IMG/VR virus record: IMGVR_UViG_3300032516_000070
Location: 1-39,541 of that record
From: a virus
Strand: one strand, 5' to 3'
DNA: 39,541 bases
Made by a program: the position numbers and the translations under genes. Positions 5,452-39,541 of this stretch are shown here, piece after piece (the first letter of the stretch is position 1; every line of letters starts with the position of its first letter). The notes under the pieces were generated by a model that was not told where the DNA came from, made no database searches, and saw only the letters and a list, made by a program, of their open reading frames with translations.

Positions 5452-5705
5452 GCCGGTTCCCTCCCCACGCATGAATCGCAATATAGTTTAGGTCTGCCTC
5501 TGCCTATTACCTCTCCTATTGTTTCCCCGCAGATTTGACATTTACTGGTTCTGATACGGGTGGAGAGGAGGTTGGCATTCCAATGTTCATATCCTTTTGA
5601 ATCTATGAGATACGCGCCGCAATGATGACAGTATCCACACTGGCACCACGGGCCTATGTTGCAGTTGCAGAGACCTATTCCTACGCAGTGGCACATTGTT
5701 TTCAC
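5448..5705 (-). CDS. Double zinc-ribbon protein
   Basis: 85 residues with about twelve cysteines. There are clustered Cys/His near the N terminus (M-C-H-C-V-G-I-G-L-C-N-C) followed by C-Q-C-G-Y-C-H-H-C-G. A separate C-terminal ribbon has S-K-C-Q-I-C-G and L-Y-C-D-S-C. The GTG start overlaps the portal stop by four bases; an ATG three codons later is the alternative. Likely binds two or more zinc ions. It lies directly behind portal, an odd place for a ribbon protein. Confidence 0.75.
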   Translation of the reverse strand: MKTMCHCVGIGLCNCNIGPWCQCGYCHHCGAYLIDSKGYEHWNANLLSTRIRTSKCQICGETIGEVIGRGRPKLYCDSCVGREPA

Positions 5706-7213
5706 TTCTCGTTGTTGAGTGCTGCTTCTATCTTTTTCTGAGCCGCCTTGTCTGCCGCGTCGAGTTCCGCCGCTAGTGCGAGTTCCGTCTCCGTTGGTTC
5801 GTGCTCTTTATCGTGCACGACCTTGAATGACTTGTTGAGGCCTTTCTCGGTCGCTTCATTGGCGGCTTCGTCGAAGGCTCTTGTTGCCTCATCGGTTCCT
5901 TGGGTGGGTGGGAAGGTGGTCGGCATCTGGCTTGGAGCTCCGAAAGAGTTCGGCGCGGACGCTATCTTGTTCTTGCGCTCCGTCTCTATCTCGGCCAGGA
6001 TTTCCGGCGTCGCTTCCGGGAGCTCGAGCAATTCCCGCTTTTCGTTGAGCGTCATGGTTCCCGTTTCGTGTCCGACCTTTACTTTTTCCAGATTGATTTG
6101 CGTTCTGTCGGCTTCCGGGACCGGGAGTGTGAGTTCGACTCTGCCCCCCGCATATCCGTTCCGTCTCAAAAGTTCCTTGATTAACGGGACCCAGAGCTTT
6201 GCGATCCATTTGAGGTACGATTGAACGGTTGTCGATACTAGCCCGGCTTTTCCCGCGTCGTTGCCGCCTATCGTAGCGCCTTCCTTTTCCATCATTGCCG
6301 CTGGGTTGAAGTATCTTTTTATGAACATGTCGATCAGTATTATGCCGTCCCTTGCGGTGCTGGAACTCGGGTTCTTGAGTTCGACTATGTCCATATTATC
6401 AGTGAGCATGTAGGAGTTGTCCTTTCCCCAGTTCTGGAGGATTAGCTTTGCCAGTGCTATTTCATCCGTGCCGCCGAGTACCTTTGGCGCCGACTTGAAC
6501 TTGATGAAGATGGCCGGGGCTCCGGTTCTGTTTATGTTCTGATGATACGCCTTGATGAAAAAGGAGATGAGCGTCACCATCGGGATTACCGGGATGAGGC
6601 GGGACTTTCCGGCCAGTTCCGGAGAAGTCGGGTTCTTGAGCATGACCACATCTTTGAGCAGGTGCGACTTTCCATCCGTTTGAAGCTGCCAGAACTCCGT
6701 TTCGCCTTTTGCGTTCTTGCAGATGCCTTTGAGAATCTCGGAGTAGATGTAACCCTCGACCCCCTCGGGCGGATTGATGAACGACTCCGGAGGCAGACGC
6801 TTGATGTTCGTCGGCGCGTACCAGCCGTCTTCGGTTCTGCCCCACGTCGGTTGATACAGATACGGACCCCAGTTGAAAGTATCGTTGAAGGATTGCCTTA
6901 TCCGCGCATCGAGTTCGCAATCGGACATTATCCTTTCGAGCTCGCGGTTGAGCTTTGCGTCCTCTTTGTCGTTGGCGTCATAGTAGTGAATCTGGGGGTC
7001 CGCCGTGAAAAGCTTTTCCGCAAGGTCCTGTAATCCCTGGGCGACGAAGAAGTTGTCTTGCACGTCTTTTATCTTTTTGCCGTCTATCTTCGGCTTGAGA
7101 TAATAGTCAGCCGTCGCGCCGATGTATTCTTCACCGTTGGTATCGCGACCTATCAGGGTTCCGCCCGCGGCCATGAAATTGAACAGTTCCGTGTCGTCCA
7201 CTTGTTTTACCAT
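5702..7213 (-). CDS. Portal protein
   Basis: 503 residues, within the normal range for phage portals. It lies directly downstream of the large terminase, overlapping it by seven bases. The N-terminal wing-like region includes the F-N-W-G-P-Y-L-Y segment. The middle contains the long helix region (ISFFIKAYHQNINRTGAP), and the C-terminal 90 residues are acidic and coiled, like a crown or extension. Portals form the dodecameric DNA gate at one capsid vertex. The assignment comes from position, size and general pattern; I did not identify the subfamily. Confidence 0.85.
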   Translation of the reverse strand: MVKQVDDTELFNFMAAGGTLIGRDTNGEEYIGATADYYLKPKIDGKKIKDVQDNFFVAQGLQDLAEKLFTADPQIHYYDANDKEDAKLNRELERIMSDCELDARIRQSFNDTFNWGPYLYQPTWGRTEDGWYAPTNIKRLPPESFINPPEGVEGYIYSEILKGICKNAKGETEFWQLQTDGKSHLLKDVVMLKNPTSPELAGKSRLIPVIPMVTLISFFIKAYHQNINRTGAPAIFIKFKSAPKVLGGTDEIALAKLILQNWGKDNSYMLTDNMDIVELKNPSSSTARDGIILIDMFIKRYFNPAAMMEKEGATIGGNDAGKAGLVSTTVQSYLKWIAKLWVPLIKELLRRNGYAGGRVELTLPVPEADRTQINLEKVKVGHETGTMTLNEKRELLELPEATPEILAEIETERKNKIASAPNSFGAPSQMPTTFPPTQGTDEATRAFDEAANEATEKGLNKSFKVVHDKEHEPTETELALAAELDAADKAAQKKIEAALNNEK

Positions 7214-8472
7214 TGGTCTAGCTTTTGCGGATATAATACTCCCTCCATTTCTGCTACGAGGTCCACACCATTTCCGGAACCTCTATCTCTCATTGAATAT
7301 CGATTATAGCGTTGAACGTCACAGAGATGGTCCCGTATCTTGACGGGTTCGTCCAATACTCTTACTTCGCCCTGAAATTTGATTTCCTTATATTTGTATG
7401 AACGCGTCTCGGCGATTCCGTTTATGGATTCGGGAGTCCAGTAGAACTTCCGGCTCTTACAGTAGTCGATGCCGTCTTTAACTGAATTATCTGCGGGTGT
7501 CGCCGCGTAGCCTTCTCTTTGGATTTCCACAATCCGGTTCTTCTCCGCCGGGTCACAGAAAATAGGGATGCTCTTCGAGATATTGTTCGAGTTCAAGAAC
7601 GCTATCAAATCCTGATTGGTCATTCCTGTTTGATATAATATCTCATGAAGATAGTCCTCTTTTTCGTATCTCCAATAAGCAGCCATAGCTGTTTGATTAT
7701 TCATTCCGAAGTCGATTGAATAAGAGTGAGGTGGAGATTCCTTGATGGAGGCGGGCCACGCACTTCTCTCCATGATGCCCCAATTGGAATAGATTAATCC
7801 TTTTAGGACGCCGGGAAGACCCAATGTATAAACGCGATAGAAGTTCTCATCCTCTTTTTCGTAGCCTTCGAGTTCCCGAATATATTCGAGAGGGAGGTGG
7901 GTTAGATTGTCCTTGTACGTGCTATGCATTATTGCGGCGTCGGGATTGTCTCCCTGGACGAATTTGCGTATCGTCCAATGGAACTGGTCGATTGGATTGA
8001 AACTCATGTAGACCTGATTCAGAACGGGGCCTTTATGACGGGTGACGTTTCGTATTGTCCTGAATTCGGCTTCCGTGATTTCCGTTGTCTCTTCGACCCA
8101 GGAAACGTCCGATTCGAAGCTCTTGAACTTTTCGGCTTCGTCCATGCTGATGAAAAATATCTTGGACTTCCCTATTGTAATCGTATGGTCTACTTGGTTC
8201 TCTATGTGTGATATTTCGAGTTCCTTGATTATGCTGAGGATAAGAGGCAAGCACGTTCGTTTCAGTTCCGGCATCGTCTTGCGGACTACCAGGATGATGA
8301 TGCCGGCACTGGAATATTTCAGCGCTAGTGTTACTATTCGCTGGGCCGTTGAGTGCGACTTCCCCGACCCGGACCCACCGTAACAGACCGGGAAGCGTTT
8401 GGTTGCCGCTTCGCCCCATAGGAATGGCCGGAACCTCGGCCTTACCCTGATGCGGCCGGCGGCTTCAGGCAT
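7207..8472 (-). CDS. terL: Terminase large subunit
   Basis: 421 residues. Walker A G-G-S-G-S-G-K-S at residues 32-39, a Walker-B-like segment D-V-S-W-V-E-E-T-T near 125-135, and a C-terminal RNase-H-like nuclease domain beginning S-I-D-F-G-M-N-N with a later F-C-D-P-A-E-K. This is the ATP-driven DNA packaging motor and headful or end-cleaving nuclease, closest in layout to the PBSX/T4-like TerL proteins. The start overlaps the small terminase stop by eight bases. Confidence 0.95.
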   Translation of the reverse strand: MPEAAGRIRVRPRFRPFLWGEAATKRFPVCYGGSGSGKSHSTAQRIVTLALKYSSAGIIILVVRKTMPELKRTCLPLILSIIKELEISHIENQVDHTITIGKSKIFFISMDEAEKFKSFESDVSWVEETTEITEAEFRTIRNVTRHKGPVLNQVYMSFNPIDQFHWTIRKFVQGDNPDAAIMHSTYKDNLTHLPLEYIRELEGYEKEDENFYRVYTLGLPGVLKGLIYSNWGIMERSAWPASIKESPPHSYSIDFGMNNQTAMAAYWRYEKEDYLHEILYQTGMTNQDLIAFLNSNNISKSIPIFCDPAEKNRIVEIQREGYAATPADNSVKDGIDYCKSRKFYWTPESINGIAETRSYKYKEIKFQGEVRVLDEPVKIRDHLCDVQRYNRYSMRDRGSGNGVDLVAEMEGVLYPQKLDQW

Positions 8473-24518: not shown

Positions 24519-25274
24519 CTATATATCCTCCCTCAGAGTAATCGAGAAGTCGATGTATTGACCACCGCGGGGCCGGAACCTGTATGTTTCTATCCTGCAT
24601 TTCGGCATGTGAACCCAGTGCGAGAAAAAGGCCAGTCGCTGGTCGGACGCGTCCATATTGAGCAACATCTGCCACATCTGGGACGCAAGGGTGCAGCATC
24701 CGGTAATCGTGACGGCCCCCGCTCCGTGGTAGCCGGGATAGACGCGGCCGTAGGGGCGACCGCGTATCTTGTGCTCCTCGAGTATGACATCCCGGGTTAT
24801 TGGTGCGAGGGGGAGGCATATCGGGTCGTCAACGGCGCCGCCGTTGAAGGTGATATTATATGTGTCGTTGCCGAGGAAGAACTTGCTCCCCCGCATTTCC
24901 ACATAATCGAAGTTCATGACCCTCGCGTCGAGACCGGCGTAGTCCTCGGCGGACATCTGCCATGGATAGGTAGGTGTCGTGCTTGCGCTCTTGAGTATTC
25001 TTGGAGACGACGCGGTTCCGTTCGTGGTAACCGAGCCGGTCTGATCACTCTGTATCGAGAAGCCCGCACCGACCCCGTCCGTGAATGTGAAGTCCGCGTT
25101 GATAATCAGGCTCCCGCCCGCTATCTCTATTCCCAGCGCCTGCGCCGCGGCCGTAATCGTGATTGTGACGCCGGTTGGAATCGAGCCTGTGTCGTTGTTG
25201 CCGGGGGGCGACCCTCCATTCCATTTCGTCCCATCGTTCCAGTTCCCGGTTGCGAGAGCGACCACGGTTCCCAT
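24519..25274 (-). CDS. Tail-tip protein with N-terminal beta-solenoid module
   Basis: 251 residues from ATG 25274. Residues 1-60 (GNWNDGTKWNGGSPPGNNDT ... ITAAAQALGIEIAGGSLIIN) repeat the W-N-x2-x-W / P-G-x-x-D module also found at both ends of the 1769-residue protein. Residues about 165-251 (G-A-V-T-I-T-G-C-C, H-M-P-K-C-R-I, F-S-I-T-L-R-E-D-I) resemble a tail-tip or distal-tail domain. It is placed between tape-measure-like genes and the hub, the distal-tail position. The fusion suggests a receptor-binding decoration. Confidence 0.7.
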   Translation of the reverse strand: MGTVVALATGNWNDGTKWNGGSPPGNNDTGSIPTGVTITITAAAQALGIEIAGGSLIINADFTFTDGVGAGFSIQSDQTGSVTTNGTASSPRILKSASTTPTYPWQMSAEDYAGLDARVMNFDYVEMRGSKFFLGNDTYNITFNGGAVDDPICLPLAPITRDVILEEHKIRGRPYGRVYPGYHGAGAVTITGCCTLASQMWQMLLNMDASDQRLAFFSHWVHMPKCRIETYRFRPRGGQYIDFSITLREDI

Positions 25275-25275
25275 A

Positions 25276-25884
25276 TTAGCCCCCCATGGATTCAAGCGCG
25301 TCGCGGGCTACGGTCCTGGACTCGTACCCCGGAGCCCCGCCTCCGGAAAACGAAATGTTCTGGGTGACATTGGGGCCCGAGGACATGTTATTCTGTTTTC
25401 CCGAAGCATCCGCGGCGCCGGTCATATATCCGACCGCTGCACCGGCGATGCCCACACCCGCCATCACGACACCGATAGTCGCGGGGTTCTTCAGCACGGC
25501 CCGGAACGCCTCCACACCAGCGAGCGAGGCCGTCGCGTTCCTCAACATCGTTACGATACCGACGACGCCTTTGAGGGCCTGGGCGATTCCCACGAACAAC
25601 TGTATTCCGCCAACGAGCTGGTAGAGACCTTTATTGTTCTCACGATTGACGATGCCGAGTTCCTCCATTCCGCTCACGGTCGCGGTGATGCCCTGCCGGA
25701 ATCCGGAAAGCGCCTGCATCGACTTGATATAATTCGTGTTGGTTTTTATTATCTCCTCGTTCGTCTCGCCCATTTTCTTATTGAGGCCGTCTGTGGAGTC
25801 CTTGGCCTGGGTGGTAACTGGGGTGATGTTGTCGACCATGTCGAAAGTGTATTGAACCGTTCTCTCGAGGCCCTCATCTCCCAT
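25276..25884 (-). CDS. Short tape-measure-like protein 2
   Basis: 202 residues. A helical N-terminal half is followed by hydrophobic helices at about 90-110 and 130-155 (GVVMAGVGIAGAAVGYMTGA), then V-T-Q-N-I-S-F-S-G-G-G and an R-D-A-L-E-S end like the C termini of tape measures. Real tape measures are usually 600-2000 residues, so this is very short. It shares the G-Y-M-(A/T)-G / Q-N-I arrangement and a hydrophobic (I/M)-Q-L-x2-G-(I/L) helix with the gene upstream, suggesting a tandem duplication. Position between chaperone and tail-tip genes supports the role. Confidence 0.65.
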   Translation of the reverse strand: MGDEGLERTVQYTFDMVDNITPVTTQAKDSTDGLNKKMGETNEEIIKTNTNYIKSMQALSGFRQGITATVSGMEELGIVNRENNKGLYQLVGGIQLFVGIAQALKGVVGIVTMLRNATASLAGVEAFRAVLKNPATIGVVMAGVGIAGAAVGYMTGAADASGKQNNMSSGPNVTQNISFSGGGAPGYESRTVARDALESMGG

Positions 25885-25888
25885 TCAA

Positions 25889-26440
25889 TCACCAAGCCTG
25901 ATTTTCTTTCATCGTTTGCGACACTCGACGCCGCCCCTCGGCGTTTTTCCAATCGGCCTTGACCCGGATATTTTGCTCCACGGAGGCTTGTCCGGCCATA
26001 TATCCGACCCCAAACGCCGCGGCGACGATTACCGCGGCCGAGGCCGCGATGGCGATTCCGACGTAGTTCTGGGCCACGACAGCGACGCCGGTCTCCACGG
26101 CAGCCGCCGTGGTCTGCCTTACGAGGTCCATCGAAACAGCCTGATGAACGGACTGATAAATTTCATAGAGGCCCATTGCGAGCTGCATCGCTCCCGCGGC
26201 GCCCATGACTGCTTTGAAGGTCTGGTCGTTTATCTTTCCCATGTCTTTGAGAATGCCGGCTATCCATTTTATCTTGTTCGCTCCCCTGAGCATCGTATTC
26301 CCGGCCTGCTTGATTCCCATGGCGCGGACCCCGAGGTCGTCATTCTCGTTCTTGTGATTATTGTAGGCGTTCTGGAGATGCACGACGTTCATGTTTATCG
26401 CCGTGACGGTTTCGGGGCTGAGGCGTTCAAGTTCCATCAT
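25889..26440 (-). CDS. Short tape-measure-like protein 1
   Basis: 183 residues, ATG overlapping the chaperone stop by four bases. Helices with a hydrophobic block at 75-95 (MGAAGAMQLAMGLYEIYQ) and a probable membrane helix at about 127-149 (YVGIAIAASAAVIVAAAFGV), then Y-M-A-G-Q-A-S-V-E-Q-N-I. The order of these parts is the same as in the next gene. It probably sits in the tail lumen and may insert into the host membrane during DNA entry. Confidence 0.65.
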   Translation of the reverse strand: MMELERLSPETVTAINMNVVHLQNAYNNHKNENDDLGVRAMGIKQAGNTMLRGANKIKWIAGILKDMGKINDQTFKAVMGAAGAMQLAMGLYEIYQSVHQAVSMDLVRQTTAAAVETGVAVVAQNYVGIAIAASAAVIVAAAFGVGYMAGQASVEQNIRVKADWKNAEGRRRVSQTMKENQAW

Positions 26441-27018: not shown

Positions 27019-27936
27019 TCACGCTATCGCGAGCGTCTTGAACCTGATTCGTATCGGCTCCCTATTTACCTTCTGCTCATATTTGGCATACGAAGGCTCA
27101 AACTCTCCGTTCGAGAGGGTGACGGTTTCGTTGTCGATGACTATCGTCAGGGCCGTGACAACGGACCCGGCGCGCATCGCGTCCTGATATGTCTGGTCTT
27201 TCGAGATTGCATTGCACTCGAAGATTATATCCCTCTCATTTTCATGGATGCCTATCGCGGTCGGGTAGTGCACGGAGTCGTCTCCGACCTTGTCCCCGTC
27301 TTCCCTCTCGAGGTGCTGCTCTATCGTGAGTTTTGCATTCTCGGCGTAGAGGTTCGCCAGTCCGCCCGCGGCGATATTTATCTGGGGGTTGGACGCCATG
27401 AAGAGGATAGCGCCCGCGGGGGTCGACGCGTCCGCTGCGATAGTCACATTCTGGAGGCCTGTTATGGCCTTGGCATTCGCGGTCTGGTGCCACTGGGCCC
27501 AGATGTCCGCCTCGAACTCTATCACTTTTCCGACCTTCTCCCATGATATGGTCAACTTGTTTATCTTGCATCCGGAGTATATCTGGTAGACGTGGGTTGT
27601 TCCGTTGTAGAGGTCGCACGTGAATGTGAATGAGCTTAGGTGGTCCAAAAGACCGGTCGTTGCACCCATCCCGTATTTCGCCCAGAAGTCCTTCCACTCG
27701 GCCGCCACTCTTGAATAGGCCTTGTAGGTGCACGCTTTCTTGTACGGGCCGTGTGTGTGCGCCCCGTAACTTCTCGAGCCCGGAAGGTTGAGAAATTGTA
27801 TTCCGTCGTCGGATGTGTTGTAGAGCGCGGTGGTGTCTCCCGCGTACGCGAGGGCGCCCGTGGGTATCGTTCCGAAGACGGATTCCAGAACATAATTCCC
27901 TGTCTTCAATTCTCCTGCAGTGTACGCGTCGGTCAT
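27019..27936 (-). CDS. Major tail tube protein
   Basis: 305 residues from ATG 27936 (AGTAGGTGA upstream; GTG 27945 alternative). Beta-rich throughout (SSFTFTCDLYNGTTHVYQIY, CKINKLTISWEKVGKVIEFE, ENERDIIFECNAI), with strand patterns of the phage tail tube/Hcp fold. The gene follows the tail terminator as usual. Longer than minimal tube proteins (about 170-200), so an extra domain is likely, perhaps at 160-230. Confidence 0.8.
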   Translation of the reverse strand: MTDAYTAGELKTGNYVLESVFGTIPTGALAYAGDTTALYNTSDDGIQFLNLPGSRSYGAHTHGPYKKACTYKAYSRVAAEWKDFWAKYGMGATTGLLDHLSSFTFTCDLYNGTTHVYQIYSGCKINKLTISWEKVGKVIEFEADIWAQWHQTANAKAITGLQNVTIAADASTPAGAILFMASNPQINIAAGGLANLYAENAKLTIEQHLEREDGDKVGDDSVHYPTAIGIHENERDIIFECNAISKDQTYQDAMRAGSVVTALTIVIDNETVTLSNGEFEPSYAKYEQKVNREPIRIRFKTLAIA

Positions 27937-27945
27937 GGTGTTCAC

Positions 27946-28326
27946 CTACTCTATTTCTTTTATCACGATAAAGCTTGTGGAAAATAAGCACCGGTTCTTT
28001 TCATCCGTTCCGAGAGGTGCGACCGAGCCCTGGCCGTCAATGCGATGATAGAGACGGGTTTCCATTGTGGTGTTCGTGAGTTTGTGAAGGAGTTTAAGTA
28101 TGGCATTTGCCAAATCCCGCCCTGTCGCATAGACCGTGTTCCTCACGAGGATGGTGATTCCGACCTGTTCGAAATCCGAAACCGGGTCCAGACCGAGCCC
28201 TGCGCTTTGCTGGACGCAGATGGAGTTGTCCGGGGAATCGGGATGGTTGCCATAGAACAGATTGGTTCCGACCGTACCTTTGGACTGGTCCTCGAGGTAC
28301 TCTGCGATGTCTGCATCGGCCGGCAA
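27946..28326 (-). CDS. Tail terminator / completion protein
   Basis: 126 residues, TTG start directly after the previous stop with GGTGAG just before. L-F-Y-G-N-H-P-D-S-P-D-N-S-I-C-V and V-G-I-T-I-L-V-R-N-T-V-Y-A-T-G-R-D-L-A-N-A-I match the minor-capsid/tail-terminator family known from SPP1- and HK97-type phages. It caps the tail tube and joins the neck. Confidence 0.82.
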   Translation of the reverse strand: MPADADIAEYLEDQSKGTVGTNLFYGNHPDSPDNSICVQQSAGLGLDPVSDFEQVGITILVRNTVYATGRDLANAILKLLHKLTNTTMETRLYHRIDGQGSVAPLGTDEKNRCLFSTSFIVIKEIE

Positions 28327-28746
28327 TTACTCACCCCAGTTGGCATATTCCTGTTCCTGAGCCGTGGTCGCTAATAGCTTGGCATCGATGCGGTCTGCGA
28401 GGAGAATGGGGAAATCATCGATATGTCTGAGAACGGGGTCCTCGAGGAACTTGGCCTTGGTCGGGGGCTTGTGATAGTTCCCGGTGACTTCGTGCACGGC
28501 GGCGGCGTAATCCGTGCCGTAGCCAAAAGCGACCGAGAGCCCTCTTGAGTTGACCTTCGGGTCCTCCACGGTCGCGGAGCGGCGCAGGGTCCCGGTATCG
28601 TGCGGACACTCCAAGACGGATTCCGTCATGATGGTTTCTTCGATGACCTCGACCATTGCGTTTCCGGCCATGAGAAGAAGGTTGGTCCTGAGCGTCTCCA
28701 TGTCCCCGGCAATCTCGCTGAGGTCGTCTATCTTTTTCGTGACCAT
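28327..28746 (-). CDS. HK97-gp10-like neck protein
   Basis: 139 residues. E-C-P-H-D-T-G-T-L-R-R-S-A-T and F-G-Y-G-T-D-Y-A-A-A-V-H-E are hallmark strings of the HK97 gp10 / SPP1 gp16.1 family involved in tail completion. It lies between stopper and terminator as expected. ATG overlaps the stopper-gene stop (TAATG). Confidence 0.88.
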   Translation of the reverse strand: MVTKKIDDLSEIAGDMETLRTNLLLMAGNAMVEVIEETIMTESVLECPHDTGTLRRSATVEDPKVNSRGLSVAFGYGTDYAAAVHEVTGNYHKPPTKAKFLEDPVLRHIDDFPILLADRIDAKLLATTAQEQEYANWGE

Positions 28747-29945
28747 TAGGTATAGACCTCCTTCAGCCAGATTGTCGTATCCGGAGCCGGCTTGCTTGCG
28801 ACCTTCAGGACCAGGGCGGTTTCTCCGGTGGATAACGTGACCTTGTCTGTCTCATCGATGTCCACGCTGCCATCTACAGTTATTTTCGTCGATGCTATCA
28901 GGACCTCTCCTTTTGCGCTCTTTATCCTGATGTTCACGGTTTCGACGTTTCCGTAGATGGTTCTGGCGTCCCTGTATGTGGGCAATCCGTCGTCTCCGAC
29001 GCCTAATTTATGATACAGGCTGAAAGTGGAAATGAGGTGGTTCGCGGCCAGTCCTCTTGGAGCGTTGCAGTCGGGAGTGGAGGATGTCTCCGTGCAATAG
29101 GCCGAATCCCCACTTGCGTTCGTGGCCTTGACCCGGTAATAGTAGAGCGTCCCGTTCGTTCCATTGTGGCAATAGGTCACGGTCGGGGCCGTGACTGTTG
29201 CGAGGAGGGTCGTGGGGCCCGTGGCGGTCCCGTAGTAGACCTTGTAGCCTGTGACCGAACTGGCGCCCTCATAGACAGGCTTGGTCCATGATAGAACGAC
29301 ATGGCGGTCTCCGTAGGCGTCCACGGTCAACGCTGTTGGCGGGTCGGGGACATCGACCGCACTGGTATCCTCCACGTCATCATACCAGGCATTCAGGGCG
29401 CCGCCCGAGCCCAATGCGCCCAGCATGACCCAAGCCACATCACCCCCGCTATTATAATCATATAGAGTTGGAGATGTCGGGTATCTCGTCCCATTGACTT
29501 TCACATAAAATTTATGGGTGTCATTGTTGTAGATGACATCTACGCGGTACTGGGTATTTTCGACTATCGTTACGAGGTCTGTATATGTTCCCGGGCTCGT
29601 ATCATACAGGGCCAGTTTTTTAACTCCGCTTCCGTTTTTGTACGTGACGATTTCTATCTCGGCGTTCCCGGAACTGTCCGCCAGATATGCATCTCCGAGT
29701 TTGGTGGTATCTACCGTATCGACGCAGATGTAGAATGTAAATCTCCTTTCCCCTGTTGCGGCCAGAAGGGAGGTGTGTTTCATGTATGCATATTCGCCCG
29801 CATTTGCGGCGCATTTTACCGAGTTGGGGCTGGAATGGTATTGAGCCGCGTTGACTAGAACCGTACTGGTCCCGGATTTAACTACACTCCAAGGTGAAGC
29901 CGGCGCGTCGCCCACTCTTTGCGAATCGAAGTTGTAGACGGTCAT
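28746..29945 (-). CDS. Head-tail stopper fused to LamG-like and FN3 domains
   Basis: 399 residues. Residues 1-198 form a concanavalin/LamG-like beta-sandwich (RRFTFYICVDTVDT, YRVDVIYNNDTHKFYVKVNG, W-Y-D-D-V at 187-191). Residues 200-292 are a fibronectin type III domain (P-P-T-A-L-T-V, V-V-L-S-W, Y-K-V-Y-Y-G, Y-Y-Y-R-V-K-A-T-N). Residues about 303-399 (G-L-P-T-Y-R-D-A-R-T-I-Y-G-N-V, S-T-K-I-T-V-D-G, D-K-V-T-L-S-T-G) resemble the small head-closure/minor capsid proteins. The gene sits precisely between adaptor and gp10-like genes, where a stopper of about 100 residues is expected. The N-terminal additions would decorate the neck and may bind sugars. Confidence 0.75.
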   Translation of the reverse strand: MTVYNFDSQRVGDAPASPWSVVKSGTSTVLVNAAQYHSSPNSVKCAANAGEYAYMKHTSLLAATGERRFTFYICVDTVDTTKLGDAYLADSSGNAEIEIVTYKNGSGVKKLALYDTSPGTYTDLVTIVENTQYRVDVIYNNDTHKFYVKVNGTRYPTSPTLYDYNSGGDVAWVMLGALGSGGALNAWYDDVEDTSAVDVPDPPTALTVDAYGDRHVVLSWTKPVYEGASSVTGYKVYYGTATGPTTLLATVTAPTVTYCHNGTNGTLYYYRVKATNASGDSAYCTETSSTPDCNAPRGLAANHLISTFSLYHKLGVGDDGLPTYRDARTIYGNVETVNIRIKSAKGEVLIASTKITVDGSVDIDETDKVTLSTGETALVLKVASKPAPDTTIWLKEVYT

Positions 29946-30439
29946 TAATCCGTATCACCGTTGTCTGTGTCTTCGTTGCCCGTATCTGTCGCTTTATCGT
30001 GGTACTCTTTTATTTTGGACTGGTCTAGATTGCCGTCTGGCATCTCGTGGTCTTCACGGACTATCGTTTCATCGATAGCGGTATCTGATGTGTCCCAGAT
30101 TCCGCCGGACTTGGTCAGGAATAGGTCTATCTTTTTCTGCGCCATATCCCGGAGGTCCTCGACCTTCATGCCGGAGGACATCAGGTTCTTGAAAGTGATT
30201 CCGCCAATGGAGTCGACGTAAGTTCCATCGAATATCCCGCGCTCGAGCAGCGCGGCCATGACCGTGAACTTCACCGCGGCCTTAAGCAGCTTCGACGTGG
30301 TATCGGCGCTTCCGCCGCGGGCGACTACTTCATCGTCGACCTCGTCTTCCGCGTCGTCGATTATCGCGTTGATGTCCGCGGTCGATACCTTGGAGTTGGT
30401 GAAGACTACGACTTCCGCCGCGGTGATGTAGGAGCCCAT
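29945..30439 (-). CDS. Head-tail adaptor (gp6-like)
   Basis: 164 residues from ATG 30439, one base after the upstream stop and behind AAAGAGGAA. A longer upstream frame only shadows the Lys/Glu tail of the preceding gene. N-terminal M-G-S-Y-I-T-A-A-E-V followed by helices (ISTADINAIIDDAEDEVDDE-like; K-F-T-V-M-A-A-L-L-E-R) fits the all-helical adaptor family. The acidic C-terminal 45 residues (DTGNEDTDNGDTD) are disordered. Confidence 0.7.
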   Translation of the reverse strand: MGSYITAAEVVVFTNSKVSTADINAIIDDAEDEVDDEVVARGGSADTTSKLLKAAVKFTVMAALLERGIFDGTYVDSIGGITFKNLMSSGMKVEDLRDMAQKKIDLFLTKSGGIWDTSDTAIDETIVREDHEMPDGNLDQSKIKEYHDKATDTGNEDTDNGDTD

Positions 30440-30816: not shown

Positions 30817-31179
30817 TCAGATTCCTCCGAAGCGAGTGAGACACGCAGCCGCCACTGTTCCCCCAGTCATTATGAGGGCGATGACGATGCCTGCGATGAT
30901 TTTCCAGGTGAGCTTCCCGCGACCGTGGACCTGGTCGAAGGTCTTCTCCCCCTTCGTGCATGGGCATCTATCCGTCCTTGTCTTCATTGCGAGTTTCAAT
31001 GCGTCCATCCTCTTATCAAGGGAATTGAAACGGAGATTGCCGGCCTTGATTCGTTCGTCGTTCCAGTAGACTTTGACGAATATGGCCTCAACGGTCTTTT
31101 CGATGTCGATTGAGCCGCCTGACGAACGATATGAATTGAGGGCTTCCAATGCCTCGGCCTTCTCTTTTTCGGTCGTCAT
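30817..31179 (-). CDS. Coiled-coil protein with C-terminal membrane anchor
   Basis: 120 residues from ATG 31179, overlapping the giant gene's stop by four bases (ATGA). Helical N-terminal 85 residues with R-C-P-C-T near 86-90, then a hydrophobic helix at about 99-116 (IIAGIVIALIMTGGTVAAA). Layout resembles holin-associated anchors such as XhlA. It probably works with the membrane protein encoded next. Confidence 0.65.
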   Translation of the reverse strand: MTTEKEKAEALEALNSYRSSGGSIDIEKTVEAIFVKVYWNDERIKAGNLRFNSLDKRMDALKLAMKTRTDRCPCTKGEKTFDQVHGRGKLTWKIIAGIVIALIMTGGTVAAACLTRFGGI

Positions 31180-34100
31180 ATCCCGGACCACCTCATCGCC
31201 CCATATCCCGCTTTTGGAATTGCCTGTGGCCTCGCAATTGGGAGCGGTGTGTTGCCTTCGTCGTAGATTGCCGCATTGTTCCCGAGCATGATTAAACCGT
31301 ATCCTGACATGACGTTGCTGTGCCTGAGCTCGGACACCGTGCCTATCTGGATGGTTCCATTGTTGACCGTGATTCCGCTTCTCACTATCTTCCCGTTGAT
31401 ATTTATTATGGTCGAGGCTCCGATGGTGGAGGTTGAGAACACGCTATTGGCCGTAAACGTGATTGTAGAGGCGTAATCGTCTCCGGTGTAGAACGACCCG
31501 GACGTGTTAGCTATGTCGTATGTACATGCCTTGCTTGATGCCGCTGAGCCGAAATAGACGGAACTGGTAACCCCGGGTGCTACGTCTCCTTCCCAATTAC
31601 CCGCTGTGCTGGCTAACGCGTCCGCTCCTCCTCCGTCCCAGACGTAATAACCTGTTATTCCGAAGTCCCAATTATGGTCATTCCCTAAATCTGTTGAGAA
31701 CGCCGCTTCGCATTCTAGTCCGCCACTTGCGTCGCAGTCATGTACTGCTACGTTGGCGAAGTCCTGAGTGCACCCAACAGATAATGTTAGGTTCCAGTGA
31801 CTGGTATGTATAGTGGAGGAGAGGGTGAGAAGTTGTCCTGTGGCTCCGTTCAAATGCGCGTAGGTCCCAATCGTTTGGGTCTTTGTCGCTTCGAACTGAT
31901 ATTCACATGCGGCTGTAACGGTGATGGTCAACGTTGCCCATGAATTATCTCCGAGTATCGAATAAGGAGACGTTTGGCCGGTGAAATCTACGATAGATGT
32001 GTTCTTGTTAAATGTCCCTGAATTGCTCCATGCCACATTACCGGCTGTCTCACCTGTAATTGTAATCGTACTCGTTCCACCGTTAAAGGTTCCGCCTGTG
32101 GATATTGTCAAATCTTTTAGCGTTCCTGCCCAACTTGTATTTCCACCGAGGGTTCCAGCGGTTGTAACGTCTCCCGTCGCGGTGAATGCGTAAGTAGATG
32201 GGGTGAGGGAGGTTGAGGCACTCACGGTTAATGCCGTGCATTGTTCGGCTTGGTCTAGAGTGAGTACGGAATTAAACGGTGTGGAGTAAGAGGTTGCATT
32301 GGAGATAGTCAGGTTATCAGTATTGGCTACCTCGTAAGCCGCGTCGGGAGCAGAGGCTGACATGATTCCCCTGAAAACAGTTGCGTTGGCTACGCCTTGG
32401 TCTATTTTCGACATCATCCAACCCGATGTTGCTTGTTCGCTTACTGTCGAATAAGTACATCCGCTGAACTGGCCCTGTGACGCGGTTCTCAGATTAATAT
32501 CCTCTTGGAGATATGTGTTGGTTCTCGAACCCGTGAATGTGGAATTGGTGACAGTGAGTATCGAGCCTACGGGTAGTCTTATTCCGCCGTGAGCGGCTCC
32601 GGCTTGAGTGACTGTTATATTATCTATTGTTGCCGTGCATCCAGTCGTTACGTCCCCGAAATCGAATGCACTTATGTTTGAAGCTGTACTGGTCGCGAGG
32701 ATGGTTGTGTAGGTAACATTCAATGTCGCTCCGTTATAGATTTGGATTCTCGAAATATTAACGGTGTGTCCCCAGATTACATTATGGCTCGCCGTCCCTG
32801 TCGAAGTGAAGATTCCGTATATTGATATTTTATTGGTGGCCACCCCCTCGATTTGGGTATCGGCGATTATGCACGTAAGGGTATCTGTTGCCGAAATTAC
32901 AAGAGAGTCGGTTTTGATATTGCCAGCGATTGTGATTGTTATCCCTGTGCCGGGGGTTGTCATTTGGGCGGAATATAGATTTAGATAAATCATATTGAGC
33001 GAAACCGTTGCCCAGTTAAATGCCAATCCGGATGAGCTGGTTAGAATGCTCGTTGTCCTGCTCGTACCTACTAGGCTTCCGCCGTTTACGTTAACCGTGC
33101 CCGTTGCTCCGCCGTCTATTGTTACGGATGCCGCGACTGTCTTGGTCCCGGTTCCGAGATTGATAGTTCCTCCCGAGTTGGTTATCCCAGCGTTTATCGT
33201 TCCGGTCCATGCGGTGTTGCTTCCGAATGTTCCCGTATTGGTAAGTACTCCTCCGTTTTGGAAGGTTCCTGTTGTCATGGATACGATTCCGGCATTCGTT
33301 ATTATCCCGGTGGTGGAGAAGGCTTGGGCTACTAGTGCTAAAGTTGTGGAGGCGGAGGTAGCCAACGTTGCGCAGGCTTCGGTTTGATTTAATGTGAAAA
33401 CCGAATCAAAGCTGGTCGAATACGCGTTTGCGTTCTTAATCGAGAAGTTGTCAGTTGCGAGCATCTGATAAGAAGCATCCATGCTATTAGCGTTCGCAAT
33501 CCCGTAAAAGACATGCGCGTTCGCAACTCCCTGGTCCGCTATACTGGAGAGCCAACCGCTCGTAGCCTGCATTCCTATTTTATTATTGGTCGTGGTGCAG
33601 GAGGATAGCTCACCGGCACATCCGGTGTTTACCGTGAGGTCCATTCCATTATTCCATGTTGCCCCGTTCGTTCCTGTGAAGGTCGTTCCTGTAATTATCT
33701 GAGCGGTCGCGTTGTTGAACTGGAAGGAACGATACCCGGTCCAAGTACCTCCGGTTATGGCGGATGTGCCCGACAGAATTACGTCCTTCGCTGAATTGCA
33801 GGTAACGATATTTGCGGCCATTGTTATCGTGTCTGTCAGAGCTATTGTTACTCCGTCAACCCCTATATTCCCCGCTACTGTAAGGTTCTTTGAAGTACCC
33901 GGGAAGACAATATCGAATTGAACATCTACTAGATTGAGAGAGCAAGTATTCCACGTCCACGTCCCCGTACTGGCTATTATACTGGTTGTTGCACTGGCTC
34001 CGTTCCATACTGTGGATGCGCCTAATGTGGTGGTTCCCGCGTTGGTATAACTTTTGGAGGCGGATTGGGTTACAGTTACAGATGCGGAGGTGGTGAGGGT

Positions 34101-36485
34101 GTCATTTGCAGTTGTGGTCCATGCCCCGATTGAGCAATTGCCTGTTAGGTTTACCGTGCATCCTCCGCCGCCGGTAGCTCCGGTTATCGCGGAGTAATTA
34201 ATCCACTTGATATTCCATATTCCAGCGGTGTTGTCCCAATTCCAATCTGTGCCCGTTGCGACAATGAGTTTATCCGTGGCCGTTCCGAAAACCGAGGCCG
34301 CATTGACCGTATTCCCGTATGCTTGGAATATCCCATTGTTCGTGATTGCTCCGGCTACGCTGACCGTCCCGACCGTGAGGGTGATGTTTCCGTTGGTTTG
34401 AAGAGTATTGGTGGCATTGGTCGTGATTGTGCTCTTTACCGTCAGGGCTTCCGCATTCGAGACTACGCAGGATGCTCCACCATTTAGGGTAAGGTTTGTA
34501 ATGGATGCACCGTTCATTTGTAGGGATTGCACTCCATTCAAATCGCAGGTAAGGGTTGCTCCGTTATCAGTGTAGGTTGCGTTGTTATCGAAGATTGCGC
34601 CTGAGAATGTAAGGGTCGCTCCGGTTGGACTTGAAATGGTTCCGCCTACGTCGTTCGTTACGTTCGCATTGAAATCTCCGGTCCACGCCGTATTCCTGCC
34701 CAACACGCCCCCGCTGTTTACCGTGACTGCGCCGTTGAAGGTGATGGTCGCGGTTGAAACATTACTCAACCCGTTAGCGTCTGATATTGAAGTCGCTCCA
34801 GTCACGGTTAGATTTTGAACTGTGCCGTAGACGTTGTGCAAACCCCCAAGCGTTATGGTAAGGTTGTTGTCTATCGTTAACCCCGTAGTAATGATGTAAA
34901 CATATCTCGCCGTCGTAGTCTTATTGATAACTACATTGTACAAGTTGCCCGTTCCCGATATACCAAGGTCTTGTTCGCTCCCACTTCCAGTAAAATTAAC
35001 AGTACCGGAATCTGCGTTTAGAGTGCTCCCCGCCTGAGTTCTTAGGGTGATATAAGACGACGCCCCCGCGAATGTGGAGCTTCCCGTCGCATTCGGTAAG
35101 TTGAGAGTTCCGCCGCTTGTCACATCTATATTGGCAGCACCCCCAACAGAGCAAGTCCACGCAGTATTCCCGCCCAGAACACCTAAATTATTTATCGTGA
35201 CAGCGCCGTTGAAGGTGCATACACTTGTGTTCGGGGTTAAGGTTCCGGTGATTGAGTTTGCTCCCGCGCACGTGTACGCGTAATTCGTTCCGGTGTCGAT
35301 GGTAGCGCCCGTATTGATTGTGACTGCCTTGAATTGTATCGAGGCGTTTCCGAGTGTCGTGGTCCCCGCAAGGTCGAATACTATGGTTCCAGAACTGTGT
35401 GTAAGTACAGTGGGGGAGGTAAAGGTTGCACCCGAGTAAGTCCATGAACCGCTGACGTTCGGCGCGATTAAGGTTCCAGCACTTGCTATGAGATTGCCGT
35501 CCATGTTCAACGTGTAAGCGGTGGCTGCAGTTCCCATCGAGGCTCCGGCTCCAATCGTTGTAGTGCCATCGATATGAAGGGTTCCGGCTCCTGTTGTCAA
35601 CCCCCCTGAAACTCCTGCTCCAACAATTAGATTGCCAGTAATATTAGAAGTTCCTGTTCCATTCGCATACGTTCCGCCATCATTGATTGTTATAGCCGCG
35701 GCGGTGTGGGTAACGGCATTGAGAGTAAGAGTATCGGTAACAGAACAAGTAGTCGTTCCGAGCGCGTAGGTAGAGCAATCAAACGCACCGGCTGTAATCG
35801 CCAGAGCAGAACAAGTAAAAGCCGCTCCTAGTGTAATAGTTTTCGTAGTTGCGTTGATTGTTAGTTTGGGGAGATTGGTCTGGTCACTACTGAAAGTGCC
35901 AGTATCTGTACAGACAAAGCCTTCCGTGCCTGCGTACGTGCCACTTCCGCCAAAATCAACCGCTACGTTTCCAGCAACATTGATACTATTGCTGATTGTA
36001 AGGTTTCCTGTATATCCCGTTGTGAGGGTGAACGATAAGAGGGATGCTGTTGCTTCGTCTACGGTGCATCCGAATACTGACGTTGCGTCAAGAACTATAT
36101 CTTCTCCAGCGGCGGGCTTGTGGGCTAGGGACCAATTGTTATCGAGGCCCCACGTTGACGCTCCCGCGGCAGACCATGTATTAGTCGCACACGCCTTTGC
36201 ATTCAGGGCCGACCTTAGCCCCTCTACGCCGTGTTCATGTATCCAGTCACGGTCGTAGACCCCGTTGCCTACTTCGTAGCCGCTTGTGTCCTCTCTTGGG
36301 CCTTCCCAGCTATCCGAGTAGAGTATGGTGGTGATTTCAGGGGGAGAGAGCCCGCATGTCTCCATGCGCCGGATAATATCCCGTACCTCAAGCCCAAGTT
36401 CCTCCGCTATATCTTCGGGAGTGTAGCCACCCTCGATTAGCTCCTCGATTAGAGCCACGAAGTCCACTTGGGAGAGGTCAAACAT
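31176..36485 (-). CDS. Giant beta-solenoid surface protein (1769 residues)
   Basis: The largest gene. Residues 1-60 are a helical module (G-Y-T-P-E-D-I-A-E-E-L-G-L-E-V-R-D-I-I-R-R-M). From about 100 onward it is Thr/Gly/Asn/Ala-rich short strands (repeated G-T-x-T, T-I-x-G, N-x-G-T-F), typical of parallel beta-helix adhesins. The module N-W-x7-P-A-x-G-E-D near 115-130 recurs near residue 1620 (G-N-W-E-G-D-V-A-P-G-V) and in the tail-tip protein. A block of about 100 residues is duplicated internally (A-T-S-G-W-L-S-S-I-A-D-Q-G-V-A-N-A and A-T-S-G-W-M-M-S-K-I-D-Q-G-V-A-N-A). No enzyme motif. Placed between head and neck genes, it may be a capsid or neck fibre for host attachment. Confidence 0.85.
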   Translation of the reverse strand: MFDLSQVDFVALIEELIEGGYTPEDIAEELGLEVRDIIRRMETCGLSPPEITTILYSDSWEGPREDTSGYEVGNGVYDRDWIHEHGVEGLRSALNAKACATNTWSAAGASTWGLDNNWSLAHKPAAGEDIVLDATSVFGCTVDEATASLLSFTLTTGYTGNLTISNSINVAGNVAVDFGGSGTYAGTEGFVCTDTGTFSSDQTNLPKLTINATTKTITLGAAFTCSALAITAGAFDCSTYALGTTTCSVTDTLTLNAVTHTAAAITINDGGTYANGTGTSNITGNLIVGAGVSGGLTTGAGTLHIDGTTTIGAGASMGTAATAYTLNMDGNLIASAGTLIAPNVSGSWTYSGATFTSPTVLTHSSGTIVFDLAGTTTLGNASIQFKAVTINTGATIDTGTNYAYTCAGANSITGTLTPNTSVCTFNGAVTINNLGVLGGNTAWTCSVGGAANIDVTSGGTLNLPNATGSSTFAGASSYITLRTQAGSTLNADSGTVNFTGSGSEQDLGISGTGNLYNVVINKTTTARYVYIITTGLTIDNNLTITLGGLHNVYGTVQNLTVTGATSISDANGLSNVSTATITFNGAVTVNSGGVLGRNTAWTGDFNANVTNDVGGTISSPTGATLTFSGAIFDNNATYTDNGATLTCDLNGVQSLQMNGASITNLTLNGGASCVVSNAEALTVKSTITTNATNTLQTNGNITLTVGTVSVAGAITNNGIFQAYGNTVNAASVFGTATDKLIVATGTDWNWDNTAGIWNIKWINYSAITGATGGGGCTVNLTGNCSIGAWTTTANDTLTTSASVTVTQSASKSYTNAGTTTLGASTVWNGASATTSIIASTGTWTWNTCSLNLVDVQFDIVFPGTSKNLTVAGNIGVDGVTIALTDTITMAANIVTCNSAKDVILSGTSAITGGTWTGYRSFQFNNATAQIITGTTFTGTNGATWNNGMDLTVNTGCAGELSSCTTTNNKIGMQATSGWLSSIADQGVANAHVFYGIANANSMDASYQMLATDNFSIKNANAYSTSFDSVFTLNQTEACATLATSASTTLALVAQAFSTTGIITNAGIVSMTTGTFQNGGVLTNTGTFGSNTAWTGTINAGITNSGGTINLGTGTKTVAASVTIDGGATGTVNVNGGSLVGTSRTTSILTSSSGLAFNWATVSLNMIYLNLYSAQMTTPGTGITITIAGNIKTDSLVISATDTLTCIIADTQIEGVATNKISIYGIFTSTGTASHNVIWGHTVNISRIQIYNGATLNVTYTTILATSTASNISAFDFGDVTTGCTATIDNITVTQAGAAHGGIRLPVGSILTVTNSTFTGSRTNTYLQEDINLRTASQGQFSGCTYSTVSEQATSGWMMSKIDQGVANATVFRGIMSASAPDAAYEVANTDNLTISNATSYSTPFNSVLTLDQAEQCTALTVSASTSLTPSTYAFTATGDVTTAGTLGGNTSWAGTLKDLTISTGGTFNGGTSTITITGETAGNVAWSNSGTFNKNTSIVDFTGQTSPYSILGDNSWATLTITVTAACEYQFEATKTQTIGTYAHLNGATGQLLTLSSTIHTSHWNLTLSVGCTQDFANVAVHDCDASGGLECEAAFSTDLGNDHNWDFGITGYYVWDGGGADALASTAGNWEGDVAPGVTSSVYFGSAASSKACTYDIANTSGSFYTGDDYASTITFTANSVFSTSTIGASTIININGKIVRSGITVNNGTIQIGTVSELRHSNVMSGYGLIMLGNNAAIYDEGNTPLPIARPQAIPKAGYGAMRWSGI

Positions 36486-38392: not shown

Positions 38393-39265
38393 TTACAGGC
38401 CGGTCAGGGTGCAGATGGAATCGGTCTGCTTGATTCTGGGGACTATCTCCTCGAAGACGAGGAACTCCGGGTCATCGACGCCGTTGTATTCCGGATTCCG
38501 TGGAACGGTCTGGACATCCCTGGCTATTACCAGGTCGATGCATTCTCCATTTGGGTCCACAGGGGTGAGCATCCCGGTGTTCGCCGTGATGTCCGCAGAC
38601 TTCAGTATCGCCGCCTGTCCGGTCCCGCCCGCATTGAGGATCTTGAGCACTGCGTCGTACTCGCTCACTCCAGTTGTGGAGAACGAGTTCACGACTTCGT
38701 GGAAGTTCCCGGGAGCGAGGGTCAGGTTGAAGCTCCAGTCCGCAGCGCTGTCTGTCTCCAGGACAGCCATCGCCAGGTTGAGCTTGATTATCATGTTCCC
38801 GTAGGTGCTCGTTACCGAGCTCGTGCCTTCCGTGTTGCCGGCCGATTCGTAAAGTCCGTTGATGTCAGCCGTGACACCGTCCTGGGCCCAGTACCGGATG
38901 AGGAGGTCATCCTCGAGCTTGGCGAGGGTGTGATATGCGCTGTCTCTTGCAGCGCTCTCGAAGTCCTTGCCCTTGGCGGCATAGGCATCGATGGTGCGCC
39001 TCGGGACCGTGAACTTCTGGGCGAGCGTGGGGACCTTGAGGGTCGACGCAGCGACCTTGATGTTGTCCGCAGGGATGGTCTTCGGCTTCAGACCGAAGGA
39101 GATGCCGGCGGGGCCCATCTCGGTTATCTTGTCGTAGTTGAGCTCGGTCTCTCCAGACTCCAGAACGGTCGTCTTTGCGAAGAGCCTGCGTCCCATTATC
39201 CGCTGCCGGAATGGGGGGACCATCTGCTTGTCGAACTGCTTTGCCGCATCCTCGTACACTGTCAT
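38393..39265 (-). CDS. Major capsid protein, encapsulin-like HK97 fold
   Basis: 290 residues. The order of parts parallels encapsulins: G-R-R-L-F near 26-30, a strand-rich segment to about 85, L-A-Q-K-F-T-V-P-R-R-T-I-D-A-Y-A-A-K-G (spine helix start), A-R-D-S-A-Y-H-T-L-A-K-L-E-D-D-L-L-I-R-Y, then F-N-L-T-L-A-P-G-N-F-H-E-V-V-N-S with I-L-N-A-G-G, and a terminal beta part E-F-L-V-F-E-E-I-V. Encapsulins and this phage capsid group share ancestry. The ribosome site AGGAGGAATAG is among the strongest in the genome. It is flanked by protease/scaffold and decoration genes as expected. Confidence 0.88.
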   Translation of the reverse strand: MTVYEDAAKQFDKQMVPPFRQRIMGRRLFAKTTVLESGETELNYDKITEMGPAGISFGLKPKTIPADNIKVAASTLKVPTLAQKFTVPRRTIDAYAAKGKDFESAARDSAYHTLAKLEDDLLIRYWAQDGVTADINGLYESAGNTEGTSSVTSTYGNMIIKLNLAMAVLETDSAADWSFNLTLAPGNFHEVVNSFSTTGVSEYDAVLKILNAGGTGQAAILKSADITANTGMLTPVDPNGECIDLVIARDVQTVPRNPEYNGVDDPEFLVFEEIVPRIKQTDSICTLTGL

Positions 39266-39325: not shown

Positions 39326-39541
39326 CTACAGCTTTGAGAGGACCCAGATGTTCGCTGCCGCCGATGTCGTGTCCACGGTTTCTTCGGCGGTTCCGACCTC
39401 TATGATTCCCGGGTTCCTTCCGAAGACGAAGAGGATTCGCCCTATGCTGGCGTGGGCGCTGGTCGTGTAGCAGAGCGAGACGCACGTTCCATCGCACTTG
39501 TACGCGATGGGGATTATCGTTCCGTCCTCGCTCGAGGCCGC
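39326..39541 (-). CDS. Capsid decoration protein candidate (3' part; begins at 847)
   Basis: This is the C-terminal end of the gene that enters from position 847 through the circle junction; 39415-39541 duplicates 1-127. Stop TAG at 39328-39326. The unique part of this fragment encodes the last 29 residues, ending A-A-A-N-I-W-V-L-S-K-L. AGGAGAACC and AGGAGGAATAG follow before the capsid gene. Confidence 0.8.
   Translation of the reverse strand, partial: AASSEDGTIIPIAYKCDGTCVSLCYTTSAHASIGRILFVFGRNPGIIEVGTAEETVDTTSAAANIWVLSKL
39415..39541. repeat. Terminal direct repeat, right copy
   Basis: Identical to 1-127; see that entry. Unique genome length is therefore about 39,414 bp. Confidence 0.95.

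Follow-up and report, generated by a model that had tools for sequence, protein, structure and literature searches.

The head-tail stopper is among the most constrained proteins of tailed viruses: six copies of it seal the DNA in and dock the tail. Known members, SPP1 gp16, lambda gpFII and the stoppers of phages T1 and Douge (the PHROG_3881 / PF05521 class), are single-domain proteins of about 105–125 residues. Known stoppers form hexamers, and their N-terminal segment points towards the adaptor in R4C and lambda (PMC10276861, PMC10721106).

Additional domains at or near the stopper have been described in several systems. The stopper of Staphylococcus phage 812 carries an extra beta-sandwich that lies externally on the neck (PMC12886913). 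Gp12 of Mycobacterium phage Giles (L042:8435-9118), an annotated virion protein and head closure protein (Hc1) of 227 residues, is an extended stopper. In R4C, the neck ring protein that is fused to an Ig-like domain is the adaptor (PMC10276861), and in the lactococcal 936 phages host-binding modules belong to the neck passage structure (PMC6669499). In the structural paper on the archaeal tailed virus HFTV1, passages dealing with the tail and with the head-tail connector name no such neck domains, and the words ‘neck’ and ‘stopper’ do not occur; the glycan binders proposed there are turrets on the capsid and the baseplate (PMC12494034).

Here we describe a virus genome in which the only stopper forms the C-terminal domain of a 399-residue protein. 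This protein shares the barrel, the gene slot and the profile match with the single-domain stoppers, but has about 290 additional N-terminal residues. It differs from the 812 stopper in that phage 812 is a myophage of another lineage with one sandwich, and a LamG plus FN3 arm has not been described for it. The extension of Giles gp12 occupies the same slot but is C-terminal and matches head closure and adaptor-like families, not an adhesin module. The R4C domain is on the 12-fold adaptor rather than the stopper and contacts the capsid, and the 936 modules are on a separate collar protein. A stopper with a LamG plus FN3 arm was found neither in the phage collection (tblastn) nor in the literature searched. 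Stoppers with extensions (812, Giles gp12), an adaptor that bears an Ig-like domain (R4C) and adhesins at the neck (the lactococcal structure) are already known, and the LamG plus FN3 stopper arm adds a further variant. The original prediction, that such neck decoration is not known to have been described for archaeal viruses, needs narrowing in view of the lactococcal CBMs, the 812 sandwich and the R4C domain.

Results

The window is a complete virus genome with a conserved neck order

The window is the whole stretch analysed, 39,541 nucleotides of IMG/VR record IMGVR_UViG_3300032516_000070. Its first and last 127 bases (positions 1-127 and 39415-39541) are identical, and this direct terminal repeat indicates that the contig is circularly complete. 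Read around the circle on the minus strand, the genes begin with the small terminase, the large terminase (TerL), the portal, a MuF-like gene, a scaffold-like gene and the major capsid protein (MCP). Several decoration-like genes, the adaptor, the fusion gene, a gp10-like gene, the terminator and the tube follow. Chaperone-like and tape-measure-like ORFs and then tail proteins lie 3' of the tube. The genes used below are as follows.

7207-8472, minus strand: large terminase (Terminase_3, E 1.5e-32)
5702-7213, minus strand: portal (Portal_Mu, E 8e-7)
38393-39265, minus strand: major capsid protein, HK97/encapsulin type (PF04454, E 1e-11; PHROG_264 major head protein, E 1.3e-5)
31176-36485, minus strand: 1769-residue beta-repeat protein, 5' of the neck genes (residues 1614-1698 resemble a gene of the relative L015, E 3e-7)
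29945-30439, minus strand: head-tail adaptor (phmmer E 1e-9 to 2e-5 against the adaptors of the relatives L028, L015, L009 and L008)
28746-29945, minus strand: fusion gene, probable LamG/ConA-like domain, FN3 and head-tail stopper, 399 residues (ORF, Pfam, model and profile)
28327-28746, minus strand: HK97-gp10-like / Neck1 tail completion protein (PHROG_5, E 9.6e-10; Pfam HK97-gp10_like, E 0.005)
27946-28326, minus strand: tail terminator (PF12691, E 6.1e-13; PHROG_2595, E 2.8e-13)
27019-27945, minus strand: tail tube protein (PF18906, E 4e-12; 38% identity with the L028 tube)
24519-25295, minus strand: tail protein, distal-tail-like by position (N-terminal beta-rich module; 42% identical to L028 13507-14265)

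The expectation that the ordered neck genes leave a single slot for the stopper was borne out, as the adaptor, gp10-like protein, terminator and tube were each identified by homology. The same order of adaptor, stopper, gp10-like protein, terminator and tube is found in annotated Gordonia phages. The listed start of the adaptor ORF (30499) is probably wrong. A likelier start is M21 at 30439, which is preceded by an RBS-like AGAGG, and the first 20 residues of the listed ORF are a lysine/arginine-rich read of the end of the upstream gene. The 1769-residue protein, whose gene lies between those of the MCP and the neck and is larger than any other in the genome, is a probable virion adhesin or decoration.

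The position expected for the tape measure (25276-26440) holds just two short ORFs of 183 and 202 residues, and the same is seen in L028. The virus may therefore have a very short tail or an unusual tape measure.

The nearest TerL relatives come from phages of bacteria and from a contig that was binned as Bacillota, and no provirus or host match was found. AGA and AGG make up 45% of arginine codons and ATA 44% of isoleucine codons. Such codon use is compatible with some archaea, but it is only suggestive and proves nothing.

The stopper is the C-terminal domain of one uninterrupted protein

The fusion gene was predicted at 28746-29945 with a product of 399 residues; both are correct and the gene is read from the minus strand (29945..28746), the plus strand having seven stops across the interval. 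It is a single uninterrupted ORF whose ATG overlaps the adaptor stop codon and whose stop overlaps the gp10-like start. Its domains are the following.

29352-29945, minus strand: probable LamG/concanavalin-like jelly roll, residues 1-198 (low-confidence model and FN3-anchored alignment to L003)
29076-29351, minus strand: fibronectin type III domain, residues 199-290 (Pfam PF00041, E 3.1e-8)
28749-29039, minus strand: head-tail stopper barrel, residues 303-399 (pLDDT about 88; Foldseek; profile E 6.9e-13)

Residues ~303-399 are a head-tail stopper, the only one in the genome. When only the L007, L008 and L009 proteins were used to make a profile, the window being left out, a search of the 405 window ORFs returned the fusion at E 6.9e-13 over residues ~300-399, and the next-best ORF at 0.03. 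The real domain scored 48.1 bits, compared with a maximum of 10.9 among 1936 scored shuffles. PHROG_3881 (head-tail connector) matched the isolated C-terminal domain (E 1.3e-4), and PDB 2kz4, a ‘putative head-tail adaptor’, matched the C-terminus (E 1.7e-4). Pfam PF05521 did not match the fusion in the Pfam search, and a PDB search with our first, six-sequence stopper profile gave nothing significant. The nearest annotated phage matches, which were weak, were ‘head-to-tail stopper’ proteins of Gordonia phages in the same gene order.

AlphaFold2 modelled residues 305-399 with a pLDDT of about 88 in the anti-parallel beta-barrel fold of known stoppers. Foldseek matched this barrel to PDB structures with probability 1.00, including those of T1 (9l0e), Douge (8zdl), SPP1 gp16 (7z4w) and lambda gpFII (8xow), as well as XkdH (3f3b) and the FCWL1 stopper, and viral stopper models matched it with TM up to 0.81. 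These results agree with the prediction that the last 100 residues resemble a stopper. The two findings that would have spoken against it, a C-terminus that is not a barrel and another stopper nearby, were looked for; the C-terminus is a barrel and stopper profiles detected no second stopper among the 405 ORFs of the complete genome.

Could the stopper be made separately, or the fusion be an artefact? No in-frame ATG, GTG or TTG lies at residues 270-320, which rules out a separate stopper from such a start; an in-frame CTG at residue 299 may serve as one. The same fusion is present in another contig, L006, which matches the window with 99.35% identity along 11.1 kb that include the whole region. 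Thus, the fusion is not an assembly chimera. Third-position GC is 0.56 in the LamG part, 0.75 in the FN3 part and 0.66 in the stopper part, values that would weakly fit separate origins for the parts.

An FN3 domain and a probable jelly roll precede the stopper

The original prediction placed a jelly roll and an FN3 domain in front of the stopper. The FN3 domain is secure: PF00041 matches residues 201-283 with 34.1 bits against a curated cut-off of 25, and the domain shares 42% identity with its counterpart in L003, a phage protein with Laminin_G_3 and FN3 domains. The jelly roll is only probable. Residues 1-198 matched no significant Pfam family and no Laminin_G, the best hit being SO2946-like_C (E 0.026). 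AlphaFold2 gave a poor model for the N-terminal 292 residues, with strands in residues ~66-155 only at a pLDDT of 50-75. When this low-confidence model was compared with known folds, as had been suggested for LamG domains, its Foldseek neighbours were consistently ConA-like (pentraxins, galectins and ConA-like lyases) with weak E-values. A MAFFT alignment of the jelly rolls of the window, L028 and L003 was unreliable. From the model, we consider it quite probable that residues 1-198 form a LamG/ConA-like jelly roll, which is possibly a sugar binder.

Most relatives have plain stoppers, but L028 has two extended ones

When the full fusion, its N-terminal domain, single stoppers or the tube served as query, the scans yielded nothing beyond the near-identical contig and matches confined to FN3. 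Tblastn of the fusion, tube and MCP against phages gave no match, nor did the MCP in genome contigs. A terminator-based search yielded relatives L007-L011, and the gp10-like protein was a productive bait that added 14 further relatives. The stopper slot holds a plain protein of 101-135 residues in L007, L008, L009, L010, L011, L015, L017, L020, L022, L024 and L026; for most of the relatives found with the gp10-like bait its length is 104-135 residues. Across 300 Bacillota genomes, PF05521 detected 55 stoppers above its cut-off, none of them in an open frame of more than 180 codons, and with our own stopper profile none of 11 stoppers in 399 genomes lay in a frame of more than 188 codons. The same fusion was recovered in L006, most relatives have plain stoppers, and extension by different domains was seen in L028.

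L028 (IMGVR_UViG_3300032516_000091) is syntenic with the window; identity is 32% for the MCP, 38% for the tube, 42% for the distal-tail-like protein and 31% for the large tail protein. By a profile count over the whole record it has two stoppers, of 439 residues (stopper at 341-439; PHROG_3881 E 4.7e-12) and 350 residues (251-350; E 5.1e-10). The N-terminal extension of one is homologous to that of the other (27% over 243 residues), and they are Ig-like by weak family matches, obtained with the first (FlgD_ig, Wzt_C). Sequence comparison detected no relation between these extensions and the N-terminus of the window protein. Each stopper gene directly follows a LamG-type gene.

L028 5253-6425: LamG-type gene of pair 1
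L028 6422-7741: Ig-stopper gene of pair 1
L028 7738-8853: LamG-type gene of pair 2
L028 8850-9902: Ig-stopper gene of pair 2

The first LamG-type gene matches Laminin_G_3 (E 5.5e-21), and its C-terminal part is common to the second. Because the extensions are homologous to each other and each follows a LamG-type gene, the pair of LamG-type and Ig-stopper genes has apparently been duplicated. LamG, FN3 and stopper are joined in one chain in the window, whereas LamG-type protein and Ig-stopper are encoded by separate genes in L028.

Other relatives carry additional domains elsewhere in the neck region. In L007 (3932-4669) and L008 (18-764) the stopper is plain and the adaptor has an N-terminal beta-rich extension of about 125 residues. 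This extension is homologous to the N-terminus of the tail protein at 24519-25295 of the window and of its L028 counterpart (phmmer E 1.7e-5 to 2e-3; for the window protein, phmmer E 5e-5 to 2e-3 and BLASTP E 5e-4). The occurrence of one beta-rich module on a neck adaptor and on a tail protein amounts to an exchange of modules between the neck and the tail. A 340-residue beta-repeat gene lies between adaptor and stopper in L015 and L017; it is related to the final part of the 1769-residue protein of the window.

Discussion

We propose a model for the fusion protein in which its barrel would plug the portal-adaptor channel after DNA packaging and would dock the tail by way of the terminator. 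In the window fusion and in both L028 fusions, the extension joins immediately ahead of the native start of the stopper and leaves the whole barrel in place. Stopper function is therefore probably intact.

The second part of the model concerns the N-terminal domains. By analogy with all solved stoppers the protein would be a hexamer, and the N-terminal side of each subunit would bear FN3 as a spacer followed outwards by the LamG/ConA-like jelly roll. As known stoppers are hexameric, their N-terminus faces the adaptor in R4C and lambda, and the beta-sandwich of phage 812 is external, we infer that the neck bears six outward N-terminal arms. These would most likely be auxiliary adhesins that hold the particle reversibly on glycans or protein of the host surface before the tail tip engages. 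Domains of these types commonly serve for attachment to cell surfaces. Surface binding of this kind has analogies in phage Douge, whose capsid and tail bear Ig-like domains that label host cells (PMC13033339), and in the neck CBMs of 936 phages (PMC6669499).

FN3 domains of phages are often dispensable and without established benefit, which counts against adhesin arms, as do the poor model of the jelly roll and its lack of a significant Pfam match. Nevertheless, we favour as reasonably likely a sole stopper with six outward FN3 and jelly-roll arms that would act as auxiliary adhesins.

It is possible, but in our judgement unlikely, that the additional domains are structural, a clamp or reinforcement that steadies the neck against neighbouring rings or the floor of the capsid, with no role in host binding. 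The arms could contact the capsid, as proposed for the Ig-like domain of the R4C adaptor, which makes a symmetry-mismatched contact there (PMC10276861). The neck decorations of phage 812 have been proposed to reinforce ring junctions, and their loss accompanies broken necks (PMC12886913). Moreover, the additional residues precede the barrel on its N-terminal side, which in R4C and in stoppers of the lambda type is turned towards the adaptor. Against this, LamG-type jelly rolls are typical ligand binders, and the modules differ (LamG and FN3 in the window, Ig-like in L028, none on the L007, L008 and L015 stoppers), unlike a conserved brace and like host-facing parts.

Another, rather improbable, explanation is that the N-terminal part is a docking platform, in which the FN3 or Ig-like domain of the stopper holds separate LamG-type or beta-helix adhesins, one of which has become fused here. 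The direct succession of LamG-type and Ig-stopper genes in L028 and the single chain in the window make a Rosetta-stone pattern, and the stopper decoration proteins of phage 812 probably attach its neck whiskers (PMC12886913). However, gene adjacency alone is no proof of contact, and the jelly roll of the window has no detectable sequence homology with the L028 LamG proteins. That the fusion is an ordinary tail or neck adhesin with a stopper-like barrel and that the real stopper lies elsewhere is very improbable and largely refuted: RIFT/stopper-like barrels are indeed known from several proteins of the tail and neck (PMC10684548), but the fusion is the one ORF in the complete genome that stopper profiles match, and it fills the conserved slot between identified neighbours.

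If the fusion protein is indeed a stopper with adhesin arms, then a stopper has become an anchor for exchangeable adhesin-like arms once in the window and twice in L028. The duplicated Ig-stoppers of L028 and the adaptor module of L007 and L008 suggest that the neck of this virus group is a site at which adhesin-like modules are swapped. Neck ring proteins may therefore share in the domain shuffling that is usually ascribed to tail tips and fibres. A bolder proposal, which we regard as speculative and unlikely, is that the neck rings are a modular adhesion device with covalent, exchangeable modules on the adaptor or stopper, and that L028-like viruses, having two different decorated stoppers, build mixed or alternative rings, so that a single particle or a single genome would have more than one neck specificity.

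The two L028 stopper paralogues raise the question of whether the hexameric ring can be heteromeric. Both stoppers encoded within L028 5253-9902 are intact, and mixed or alternative neck rings are possible in that virus.

Outside the neck region of the window, positions 2281-2817 encode a cysteine-rich protein with spaced CxxC motifs. By eye it resembles YkgJ-type proteins, an unusual cargo for a virus.
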